Assembly (NCBI RefSeq): GCF_007991175.1
Contig: NZ_BJXV01000012.1
Coordinates: forward strand, 62,001-126,000
DNA from: Halovibrio variabilis
GTDB taxonomy: Bacteria; Pseudomonadota; Gammaproteobacteria; Pseudomonadales; Halomonadaceae
Direction of reading: 5' to 3'
DNA length: 64,000 nt
Shown here in pieces: positions 55,582 through 62,722 of this stretch (positions within the stretch are counted from its first letter, which is position 1; the number at the start of each line of letters is the position of its first letter). Both the position numbers and the translations under genes were made by a program. Under the pieces are notes generated by a model, which saw only the letters and a list, made by a program, of their open reading frames with translations, was not told where the DNA came from and made no database searches.

Positions 55582-57980
<2,399 letters not shown>

Positions 57981-58026
57981 CCAATGCCATTGTTGAGTAA
58001 AATACTCGGGTATTGCATTACAATAG

Positions 58027-58308
<282 letters not shown>

Positions 58309-59782: not shown

Positions 59783-61093
59783 ATGCTTAAAATGATCTCA
59801 AAACCAGCGGTCAAGCTGGTGGAGCGCTATCTACCCGACCCGTATATTTTCGTTCTCCTGCTGACGTTAATTGCCTCGGTCGCCGCCATCGCTATTGAGC
59901 GCCAGTCACCGCTGGCGGTGCTGCGCTTCTGGGGCGATGGCTTCTGGGGCTTGTTGACGTTTTCAATGCAGATGCTATTGGTGCTGGTGACCGGCTTTAT
60001 GCTGGCAAGCTCGCCGCCGGTAAAGCGCATATTGCAAAAAATCGCCAGTACCGCTAAAACGCCCGGCGGCGCTATCATCCTCGTCACGCTGGTTTCCTTG
60101 GCCGCCAGCTGGATTAACTGGGGCTTTGGTCTGGTGGTCGGTGCGCTGTTTGCCAAAGAACTGGCCCGGCTGATCCGCGTTGACTACCGGCTACTGGTCG
60201 CCAGCGCCTACTCCGGCTTTGTGGTGTGGCACGGCGGCTTGGCGGGCTCAATACCACTGACCATCGCCACCGAAGGCCACTTTTCCGCCGACCAGATTGG
60301 CATAATCGGCACTGGCTCAACGATTTTCGCCTTTTTTAACCTCGCTATCGTCGTCTGCCTGTTTATTTCCATCCCGTTGGTCAACCGCATGATGCTGCCG
60401 GATGAGAAAGATAGCGTCTACGTCGACCCTAAAGTGCTCGACGACGCCCCCGAGTCGGCCGGGCGCATTTCCCGCCCGGCTGAGCGCCTTGAAAACAGCG
60501 TGTCCCTCGCCCTGCTCGTTGGGGTGCCCGGCCTGCTTTTCTTGCTCGATCACTTTTTGCTACGCGGCGGCGGCTTGAACCTCAACGTGGTTAACTTTAT
60601 GTTTCTGTTCCTGGCCATTGTGCTGCACCGCACGCCGCGTAATTTGCTCAACAGCCTGAACGAAGCGATTAAAGGCGGCGCGGGGATCGTCATTCAGTTT
60701 CCATTTTATGCCGGCATTATGGCGATCATGGTTCAGTCTGGGCTGGCAGAAAGCCTGTCCGAGTCATTGGTCTCCTTTGCCACCGCAGACACACTGCCGT
60801 TCTGGTCGTTTATCAGTGCAGGGATTGTGAATCTCTTTGTGCCTTCCGGCGGTGGCCAGTGGGCCGTGCAGGCACCGGTGATGCTACCCGCCGCTGAGGC
60901 GCTGGGTGCCGATATTTCCCGTATCGCCATGGCGGTTGCCTGGGGCGATGCCTGGACTAACCTGCTGCAGCCTTTTTGGGCGTTACCGGTACTCGCCATT
61001 GCCGGGCTGAAGGCGAAAGACATTATGGGCTTTTGCCTCATTCAACTGTTTATTACCGGCATTATCATCTCAATCGGTCTGACGTGGTTCTAA
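59783..61093 (+). CDS. Short-chain fatty acid transporter, AtoE family
   Basis: Polytopic membrane protein of 436 aa. It has ERYLPDPYIFVLLLTLIAS, TFSMQMLLVLVTGFMLASSPPVKR, SWINWGFGLVVGALFAKELAR, and the family C-terminus NLFVPSGGGQWAVQAPVML and AVAWGDAWTNLLQPFWALP. AtoE imports acetoacetate and butyrate in E. coli. No ato genes are adjacent, so the substrate is uncertain. GAGAGGG precedes the ATG. A hairpin follows. Confidence 0.88.
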   Translation: MLKMISKPAVKLVERYLPDPYIFVLLLTLIASVAAIAIERQSPLAVLRFWGDGFWGLLTFSMQMLLVLVTGFMLASSPPVKRILQKIASTAKTPGGAIILVTLVSLAASWINWGFGLVVGALFAKELARLIRVDYRLLVASAYSGFVVWHGGLAGSIPLTIATEGHFSADQIGIIGTGSTIFAFFNLAIVVCLFISIPLVNRMMLPDEKDSVYVDPKVLDDAPESAGRISRPAERLENSVSLALLVGVPGLLFLLDHFLLRGGGLNLNVVNFMFLFLAIVLHRTPRNLLNSLNEAIKGGAGIVIQFPFYAGIMAIMVQSGLAESLSESLVSFATADTLPFWSFISAGIVNLFVPSGGGQWAVQAPVMLPAAEALGADISRIAMAVAWGDAWTNLLQPFWALPVLAIAGLKAKDIMGFCLIQLFITGIIISIGLTWF

Positions 61094-61156: not shown

Positions 61157-61693
61157 ATGTCAGAAACTGGAATCGGCGCAAACACGGCCTTCCCAGGGCA
61201 ACACGAACTTTCGATGACCGTGCTGATGACGCCCGACATGGCCAATTTCAGCGGCAAAGTGCACGGTGGTGCCATTCTTAAAAAACTTGATGAAGTCGCC
61301 TTTGCCTGTGCCAGTCGCTATTCAGGCCACTATGTGGTGACATTATCAGTGGATCAGGTGCTGTTTAAACAGCCGATTCATGTCGGTGAACTGGTGACCT
61401 TTTTAGCCTGCGTCAACCACGTCGGCCACTCGTCAATGGAGATTGGCATCAAGGTCGTCGCTGAAGATATTCGCAATAAGCTGATACGCCACACCAATAG
61501 CTGTTACCTCACCATGGTCGCCGTGGACACTGACGGCAAACCCGCCAGCGTACCGCCACTCACCTTGGCAACCCCCTTGCAAAAACTACGCTTTGAAAAG
61601 GCGGCGCTGCGTAAAAAGTTACGCAAACAAGCGGAAAGAGAAGAACTGATCACCCAGCAACAGCATCAGTCTCAAGCCCAATCGCCGACCTAG
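61157..61693 (+). CDS. Acyl-CoA thioesterase, hotdog fold (YciA/BFIT-like)
   Basis: A 178-aa protein with one hotdog domain (about residues 10-130). The core motif is NFSGKVHGGAILKKLDEVAFACASRYSG, with the Gly-Gly helix cap and an acidic LDE. YVVTLSVDQVLFKQPIHVGELVTF and LIRHTNSCYLTMVA follow. The C-terminal tail is highly charged (KKLRKQAEREELITQQQ). AAGGAG precedes the ATG. Substrate chain length is not readable from sequence. Confidence 0.88.
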   Translation: MSETGIGANTAFPGQHELSMTVLMTPDMANFSGKVHGGAILKKLDEVAFACASRYSGHYVVTLSVDQVLFKQPIHVGELVTFLACVNHVGHSSMEIGIKVVAEDIRNKLIRHTNSCYLTMVAVDTDGKPASVPPLTLATPLQKLRFEKAALRKKLRKQAEREELITQQQHQSQAQSPT

Positions 61694-61717
61694 CATCACC
61701 CATCACAAGGAGTTCGC

Positions 61718-62722
61718 ATGCCTGCCAGGGAACGCTACCCGCACCTGCCGAAAGCGGTTGAATATACCCATATCGGCTGGGACTTTTTCATTCTGGCGGC
61801 AGTGGTCATTAACCTCGGCCTGCTACTGTTTGACTCCTTGTTCCTACTGGAACCAATTAATCAGGGCATCGACAACCTCGCCCCAGGGTTTCACGCCTTT
61901 TACGATGAGACGATTCATCGTCGCTTTATCACTATCGATTTAATGTTTGTGGGCATTTTTATCGCCGACGTATTGCTGGGCTGGTCAATCGCCATTGCAG
62001 AGCGGCGCTATCACCGCTGGTTCTTTTACCCGTTCGTGCACTGGTATGACGTGCTGGGTTGTATTCCATTGTCGGGCTTTCGCCTGTTGCGTATTTTACG
62101 CGTGGTGTCGCTACTCAATCGCCTACAGCGACTCGGCCTTATTGATGTGACGCACTGGCGTATCTATCAATTTGTGGCCAAGTACTATGACATCCTGCTC
62201 GAAGAGCTCTCCGACCGCATCGCACTCAGACTGTTAGGCAATGTACAGGAGCAGATCCGCGCTAGCGACTCGCTCACCGAGCGGGTCATCGACCGTGTGA
62301 TTATGCCGCGCAAGGCACAGCTGATTCATGAAATAGCCCAACGTTTGGAAAATACCGTCGGCAAGGCCTACCAGCACAACCGTCAAGCCATCATGGCGGC
62401 GATCAGCGACTTAGTCAGCCGCACACTGCGCGAAAGCCCTGAGATTCAGCGCTTTAACCGCCTGCCCATGGGGCAACAGGCCACCAGTGCAATGGAAGCA
62501 TCACTCAGCGGCGTTGCCCAGCGGCTAGTCGATGAACTGGTGCTCGGGATTCACTCTGAGGAGTTCAAGCAGCTGGTCGAGCGCACCGCCGACAGCGGGT
62601 TCGATACCTGGCTGACCGTTGACGAAGGCAGCAACCGGGTCACCGAGCAGGTGCTCTACGACATCCTCGAAATGCTCAAAGAGCAAGTTAGCCACCAGGG
62701 TTGGAAAGACCGTTATGAATAA
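61718..62722 (+). CDS. Voltage-sensor-like membrane protein without a pore domain
   Basis: A 334-aa protein with four N-terminal membrane segments: S1 about 21-44, S2 about 70-93 with Asp74 and Asp84, S3 about 101-118 with Asp111, and an S4-like helix. The S4 has arginines every third residue (R122, R125, R128, then R135, R138). After S4 comes a long soluble, helical, charged region to the C-terminus, with no S5-pore-S6 and no selectivity filter. It resembles ion-channel voltage-sensor domains used alone. Function unknown; annotation tools may call it an ion transporter. The stop overlaps the next gene by 8 bp. Confidence 0.7.
   Translation: MPARERYPHLPKAVEYTHIGWDFFILAAVVINLGLLLFDSLFLLEPINQGIDNLAPGFHAFYDETIHRRFITIDLMFVGIFIADVLLGWSIAIAERRYHRWFFYPFVHWYDVLGCIPLSGFRLLRILRVVSLLNRLQRLGLIDVTHWRIYQFVAKYYDILLEELSDRIALRLLGNVQEQIRASDSLTERVIDRVIMPRKAQLIHEIAQRLENTVGKAYQHNRQAIMAAISDLVSRTLRESPEIQRFNRLPMGQQATSAMEASLSGVAQRLVDELVLGIHSEEFKQLVERTADSGFDTWLTVDEGSNRVTEQVLYDILEMLKEQVSHQGWKDRYE

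Follow-up and report, generated by a model that had tools for sequence, protein, structure and literature searches.

Bacteria respond to membrane potential, and we know of no dedicated bacterial protein receptor for it, apart from channels, that has been established. Voltage sensors without a pore are already known from eukaryotes, namely Hv1 and the voltage-sensing phosphatases (VSP). The S4 segment of Hv1 carries three consecutive third-position arginines with the spacing RxWRxxR, and the active site of the voltage-sensing phosphatases has the motif HCx5R. In these phosphatases, the movement of S4 drives a cytosolic effector, according to the available part of one study (PMC12332018). The accessible text of a 2023 proton-channel review describes the S4 Trp as totally conserved in Hv1, mentions no Hv channels reported in prokaryotes, and states from database searches that every voltage-sensing domain known in prokaryotes is joined to a pore for K+, Na+ or Ca2+ (PMC10377628). 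Likewise, searches of the open-licence literature on voltage sensors, including the available portions of PMC12652588 and PMC4878010, turned up no bacterial pore-less voltage sensor.

We have analysed a gene near the end of a stretch of 64,000 nucleotides (the window), for which the original prediction proposed a voltage-sensor domain protein with no pore. The gene and its surroundings are as follows.

59783..61093: short-chain fatty-acid transporter gene, preceding the 4HBT thioesterase-family gene
61157..61693, + strand: 4HBT thioesterase-family gene, upstream of the voltage-sensor gene
61707..61712, + strand: Shine-Dalgarno-like AAGGAG, 5 nt 5' of the ATG of the voltage-sensor gene, read directly
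61718..62722, + strand: gene of the voltage-sensor-domain protein without a pore, from ATG to TAA, encoding 334 aa
62715..63323, + strand: LysE-type gene, beginning with an ATG inside the voltage-sensor gene (8 nt of overlap)

The nearest named relatives of the encoded protein belong to Vreelandella/Halomonas. Positions 57486..58308 contain one ORF resembling phosphopantetheine adenylyltransferase and another resembling a 4Fe-4S ferredoxin, which we take by eye to be ordinary housekeeping genes. The same genome also codes for one BacNaV-type channel (TFEDW) and one Kv-type channel (TVGYGD), and therefore the pore-less gene comes on top of ordinary channels. The presence of these channels would fit an auxiliary role, in which the protein senses voltage for an ion channel or transporter encoded at another locus, as would the finding, in the available part of PMC13095418, that split channels work without a covalent link between voltage sensor and pore. 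We consider such a role very improbable, since Pfam finds no channel among 10 neighbouring genes, the other neighbours having been compared among themselves, and two genomes (G061 and G064) carry the gene but give no Ion_trans match.

The segments of the membrane part have been placed as follows.

61775..61849, + strand: S1, residues 20-44, with D22, N32 and D39 conserved; from hydropathy, the model helix 12-43 and conservation
61850..61924, + strand: S1-S2 loop, residues 45-69, net acidic, with two short model helices; placed outside by charge
61925..62002, + strand: S2, residues 70-95, with F81-xx-D84 and, in the window protein, Gly88; from conservation, model and hydropathy
62027..62068, + strand: S3, residues 104-117, YPFVHWYDVLGCIP; from conservation
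62078..62131, + strand: S4, residues 121-138, with R122-xx-R125-xx-R128, then R135 and R138; aligned to channel S4

S4 of the window protein reads FRLLRILRVVSLLNRLQRLG. The prediction of arginines at every third position from 122 to 138 holds for Arg122, Arg125 and Arg128 and fails beyond them, where Ser131 is followed by Arg135 and Arg138. The acidic residues expected in S2 and S3 are present, as D84 (with D74 near the start of S2) and D111, respectively. The model helices (12-43, 70-95, 98-115 and 122-138), together with hydropathy, give four membrane segments and none past S4. The family-mean 19-residue hydropathy is 2.4 for S1, 1.7 for S2 and 1.35 for S4, and is weak for S3 (only 0.9), where the linker to S4 is very short. 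Centred at residue 150 or later, the same mean never exceeds 0.61. That is, a second membrane half is absent, and the soluble region estimated earlier at about 190 residues comes to ~185, with no hydrophobic segment from residue 150 on. The mean net charge over 40 representatives is +2.1 in the S2-S3 loop, +3.2 after S4, -1.3 in the S1-S2 loop and about 0 at the N-terminus, a pattern that suits N- and C-termini inside.

In the samples searched, the family is confined to Gammaproteobacteria and is patchy there. A protein search gave matches in 36 of 58 genomes, including 31 of the 36 further genomes from the genus, in 68 of 293 genomes (30 of 118 genera) of the order, and in 13 of 299 genomes of a phylum sample, with one match per matching genome; these three sets overlap in genomes. 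A profile of 26 members matched 20 of 398 genomes in a phylum sample. With a profile of the C-terminal domain alone, 7 of 321 genomes in a class sample were matched, and the five outside the order all have the whole architecture. Second profile matches in two genomes (G072 and G210) were rejected as family members, being pore-bearing channels with TVGYGD. Among 596 pattern-matched stretches of a species-level genome collection, at least 573 proved to be relatives; two patterns were searched, so that a locus may count twice, and 80 loci were kept.

No relative was found in the viral collection. Two records named 'Acinetobacter phage MD-2021a' (CAKLQH020000030.1 and CAKLQF020000028.1) hold a relative of the gene, and these may be bacterial sequence, not phage. 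In the plasmid collection the annotation of the family gene is uninformative or wrong, consisting of no feature, 'hypothetical protein' or SecA. Actually, in CP040048.1 and CP035931.1 (A. baumannii) the gene is labelled 'preprotein translocase subunit SecA', which the sequence does not support.

To what extent the S4 charges are kept matters here, as the arginine spacing by itself is not rare. Shuffling the 334 residues 20,000 times gave RxxRxxR somewhere in 3400 of the shuffles, so that the spacing alone counts for little as evidence; 32 of the 20,000 had it with hydrophobic spacers. Conservation, rather than the bare pattern, is the real evidence for S4. For this analysis, 202 ORF hits were reduced by the 3 scoring 100 bits or less, the remaining 199 contained 151 different sequences, which with the window protein make 152 aligned rows, from which 40 representatives were taken at 70% identity. 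Poor conservation of the S4 arginines among homologues had been named beforehand as a sign against the prediction. We have found Arg in 39 of the 40 representatives at 122, in all 40 at 125 and 128, and in 39 at 135. The first three are present together in 39 of 40 representatives and in 151 of 152 rows, and the sole exception (L165, genome G054) has His at 122. Among the 29 Arg columns of the protein, only six have Arg in at least 36 of 40 representatives, namely R100 (36), the four S4 positions R122, R125, R128 and R135, and R167 (39), while the seventh best, R198, has Arg in 28.

The acidic partners are conserved as well. Position 84 in S2 is Asp or Glu in 40/40 representatives, and so is position 111 in S3 (Asp in 34, Glu in 6); F77, W89, W101, P105, W109, Y110 and P117 are the same in all 40. 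The S2 motif of voltage sensors is given as [FYW]xx[ED]xxx[RK] in the available part of PMC4878010. Its aromatic and acidic positions ([FYW]81 and [DE]84) are both found in 35 of 40 representatives, and 20 of 40 have Arg or Lys at 88 as well. Position 88 is Arg in 24 representatives, and the window protein, with F81 and D84 present, has Gly there.

Some of these positions bear on whether ions cross the voltage-sensor domain itself, i.e., whether the protein is a proton (or cation) channel of the Hv1 kind. The general plan would agree, since Hv1 also has a pore-less S1-S4 with three S4 arginines. At S1 position 32, Asn is found in 36 of 40 representatives, Asp in 3 and Ser in 1, and Asn32 of the window protein presumably corresponds to the essential Asp in the middle of Hv1 S1. 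Two residues past R122, where Hv1 has Trp in its S4 spacing, stands Leu124, which is nearly invariant in the group labelled A1. With Asn in S1 and no such Trp in S4, a proton channel like Hv1 becomes less likely, and for a simple proton channel the conserved C-terminal domain of ~185 residues would be superfluous. Overall we regard this alternative as improbable, even considering that the isolated Shaker voltage sensor conducts cations, as stated in the title of PMC5092046 and reported in the available parts of PMC12332018 and PMC13095418.

Direct comparison with channels relates the membrane part to voltage sensors. In hhalign, the S1-S4 columns of the family match 31 pore-bearing channels from the own and related genomes at 87.6% (E 3.5e-6), with residues 19-131 placed over S1 to S4 of the bacterial Nav/Kv channels. 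In this alignment the arginines of S4 are in register, as are the acidic residues of S2 and S3 and the aromatic residue of S2. Nine control families from the gene neighbourhoods reach at most 0.4%, their profiles of 3-5 sequences each being thinner than that of the 31 channels. Ion_trans is the commonest Pfam match, which 19 of 26 members give with an E value of at most 1 (the lowest being 1.5e-4), below the Pfam cut-off. For the window protein it scores 17.1 bits against a cut-off of 25 and covers only profile positions 4-116 of 241, which is the S1-S4 half. Since this match stops at 116 of 241 and no hydrophobic segment lies past S4, a pore of S5-S6 with selectivity filter is absent from the protein. 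Overall, homology to voltage sensors and the absence of a pore are well supported, and the central claim of the original prediction stands on the conserved S4 arginines, the model and the profile alignment with pore-bearing channels.

Other searches added little. MTLN, the next Pfam match (9 of 26 members, best 0.0063), was set aside together with DUF4378, TetR_C_11, MMS19_C and others, as these matches are weak and look like noise from helical composition. The window protein has no match in NCBIfam, where a few A1 members give unrelated weak matches (best E 0.0092), and no match in PHROGs up to E 0.1; PADLOC gives it only a weak oligonucleotide-cyclase match (E 0.019). Sequence searches of the PDB returned no voltage sensor, only weak matches, mostly to helical proteins.

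The predicted structure is consistent with a voltage-sensor fold and is not decisive. The voltage-sensor-only model (residues 10-152) was built from a shallow alignment of 73 Halomonadaceae sequences (the window protein and 72 of the 80 kept loci) and has a pLDDT of 75.4 and a pTM of 0.59, with the S1-S4 helices and two short helices in the S1-S2 loop. With this model, Foldseek places NavAb first at E 3.8 among 7 matches, which include ZnT1 and a ribosome-complex chain. In VIA, which compared only the top 145 chains of Foldseek, the best 50 are all 6TM cation channels, channel constructs or SLC9C1, with Z from 6.9 to 9.5, values that bundles of helices can reach through their shared arrangement; TRPML2 (9.5) ranks above NavAb (8.1 and below). 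A fold unlike a voltage sensor had also been named beforehand as a sign against the prediction. The four predicted helices follow the voltage-sensor order and the matches are mostly S1-S4 domains, with fold scores that are not significant alone. The full-length model is poor (pLDDT 58, pTM 0.30), and its fold search, also headed by NavAb, is not used as evidence. For this reason the C-terminal domain is left with no reliable structure.

The part of the protein after S4 has the following features.

62165..62719, + strand: C-terminal region, residues 150-334, predicted all-helical, with no membrane segment and no assigned family; probably cytosolic
62201..62218, + strand: EELSDR motif after the S4 linker, residues 162-167
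62462..62473, + strand: LPMG motif, residues 249-252, with P250 and G252 in 40/40 representatives and P250 also in the sister branch described below

A survey of homologues for conserved cytosolic residues had been proposed, and it shows that E162, S165, D166, R167, P250 and G252 are kept as strongly as the S4 arginines. In the EELSDR motif, E162 is found in 40 of 40 representatives, E163 in 37, and S165, D166 and R167 in 39 each. A kinship of this domain with DUF445 (PF04286) was suggested by Pfam matches with an E value of at most 1 in 3 of 21 members (the lowest being 3.8e-4), and it found no support in hhalign, which gives 1.7% against two DUF445 proteins only.

One genome (G069) has kept the C-terminal domain alone. 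Its sole family match is a protein of 185 aa (L243:4351-4908), and no voltage-sensor sequence can be detected within the 7.1-kb stretch around it. A nitroreductase gene adjoins the gene of this protein, and another lies beside the full-length gene in G054. Because the domain is kept there without the voltage sensor, it may have a voltage-independent job. By eye, the EELSDR stretch is not kept in this protein, which fits a role of the motif, in the window's branch, in linking the domain to the voltage sensor; this is one case, and the sister branch has the sensor without the motif.

The sister branch consists of proteins of about 260-285 aa in Tsukamurella tyrosinosolvens (L259), Nocardia farcinica (L258) and two gammaproteobacterial genomes, G136 (L230) and G712 (L253), so that it spans Actinomycetota as well. 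It was found from a divergent 261-aa protein in G136, to which the G712 relative is 53% and the Nocardia and Tsukamurella proteins 46-49% identical; the Tsukamurella gene is annotated as hypothetical protein. In profile comparison the two branches match at 99.3% (E 1.7e-20, 202 columns), and the C-terminal domain alone matches the sister branch at 80.8% (E 1.3e-5). Against the channel profile, the sister branch alone scores 87.9%, and in PHROGs it matches phrog_7872, of unknown function (E 1.6e-6). It is like the window's branch in the S4 spacing, the WY..G..P of S3, the lack of a pore and a C-terminal LP/IP motif, and unlike it in a shorter S1-S2 loop and C-terminal region and in the absence of EELSDR. 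Across four members per branch, D22, W89, W109, Y110, G114, P117, R122, R125, R128, P250 and V324 are invariant.

The two branches help to weigh the main rival, according to which a voltage-insensitive sensor-like domain anchors and orients the cytosolic helical domain and the charges are structural salt bridges. This would agree with the TRP-channel voltage-sensor-like domains among the best fold matches in VIA, with the lineage (G069) that kept the C-terminal domain after loss of the membrane part, and with Gly at the S2 basic position in the window's branch. TRP-type voltage-sensor-like domains have lost most S4 arginines, unlike the present proteins, where the three S4 arginines are (nearly) invariant across two bacterial branches; the countercharge positions in S2 and S3, Asp or Glu in 40/40 representatives, also argue against a mere anchor. 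We hold this rival to be rather unlikely.

The genomic neighbours do not point to one common partner. Of the 80 Halomonadaceae loci, 79 of which extend at least 700 nt upstream, 44 have a 4HBT thioesterase gene immediately before the voltage-sensor gene and 9 have LysE immediately after it. Acinetobacter (L145) and nine genomes of a family (f36: L161, L162, L223-L229) that resembles L145 and is therefore taken to be Moraxellaceae share one gene order: an acyltransferase gene, the voltage-sensor gene, minC and minD, all on the same strand. It is seen in 10/10 loci whose copy is full-length. In L224 the acyltransferase is matched weakly (E 3.7e-6), and in L145 the acyltransferase and MinC are recognised by Pfam, with minE annotated. 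None of the acyltransferase, minC or minD neighbours is found at L230 of G136, which has the sister-branch gene only. In another family (f29), 3 of 5 loci (L150, L153 and L154) have immediately upstream a gene of a single protein family (~1300 aa), represented in L153 by a DUF1631-GGDEF-EAL protein. Comparing 27 loci (with the L156 ORF set lacking the family gene itself), we found no common genomic partner, because the neighbours differ between families and are conserved only within them. The minC-minD/acyltransferase setting makes cell-division placement or membrane-lipid metabolism candidate outputs in those loci.

Two A. baumannii proteins have been considered in this connection. AdvA was rejected as a family member, being described in the available part of PMC7481262 with a DUF4175 domain and two membrane helices. 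GO593_10640 might be one: the available part of PMC11975115 gives it as a predicted, transporter-like membrane protein whose knockdown resembles ftsY/ffh knockdowns, a link to signal recognition particle genes that comes from chemical genomics.

Based on the above analyses, we see about an even chance that the window protein is a stand-alone bacterial sensor of membrane potential which moves a cytosolic helical domain, with the sensing and the output deduced from sequence and model. S1-S4 would form a voltage-sensor domain in the inner membrane, where a change of membrane potential would shift R122, R125 and R128 through a charge-transfer centre made of F81 and D84 of S2 and D111 of S3. With no S5-S6 pore involved, the linker and the EELSDR motif would then relay the movement of S4 to the helical domain at the C-terminus, and this domain would presumably bind a partner or change its oligomeric state. 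The near-invariant S4 charges and their acidic partners argue that voltage sensing has been kept, and the equal conservation of C-terminal residues argues for a cytosolic output, as in the voltage-sensing phosphatases without the enzyme. Against the sensor reading stand the run of only three consecutive third-position arginines, the short linker between S3 and S4, the weak hydropathy of S3, Gly88 in the window's branch, the low fold scores, the poor full-length model, the C-terminal domain kept alone in G069 and the lack of a common partner among the genomic neighbours. The broader proposal, that the proteins make up a widespread bacterial receptor family in which the pore-free sensor moves the helical domain and so reports the proton-motive force to a cellular machine, is tentative, and we put it somewhat below even.

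Since the relatives keep the key residues of the sensor, bacteria may have a stand-alone membrane-voltage sensor. The family contradicts the rule, given in the available text of the 2023 review, that prokaryotic voltage sensors carry a pore (PMC10377628), and it is relevant to the question of whether eukaryotes alone gave rise to voltage sensors without a pore. It also supplies genes, residues and gene removals for testing whether bacteria signal directly by voltage, and small bacterial sensors from which voltage indicators could be engineered.

Among known systems, the bacterial Nav (BacNaV: NavAb, NavCt) and Kv channels of Ion_trans (PF00520) have an S1-S4 in register with that of the window protein, with a VIA Z of ~8 for NavAb; these channels have S5-S6 and a selectivity filter, whereas the window protein has neither. 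Hv1/VSOP is alike in the pore-less S1-S4 and the three S4 arginines, and differs from the window protein, which has Asn in S1 instead of Asp (by the presumed correspondence), L124 instead of Trp, and a large extra C-terminal domain. The HCx5R phosphatase motif occurs in none of the 152 aligned rows, and no phosphatase family is among the Pfam matches listed. In overall plan, the voltage-sensing phosphatases (Ci-VSP family, eukaryotes) have an S1-S4 sensor followed by a cytosolic domain, with no pore, as in the window protein, which in contrast to them is bacterial and ends in a domain of no assigned family that is predicted to be all-helical.
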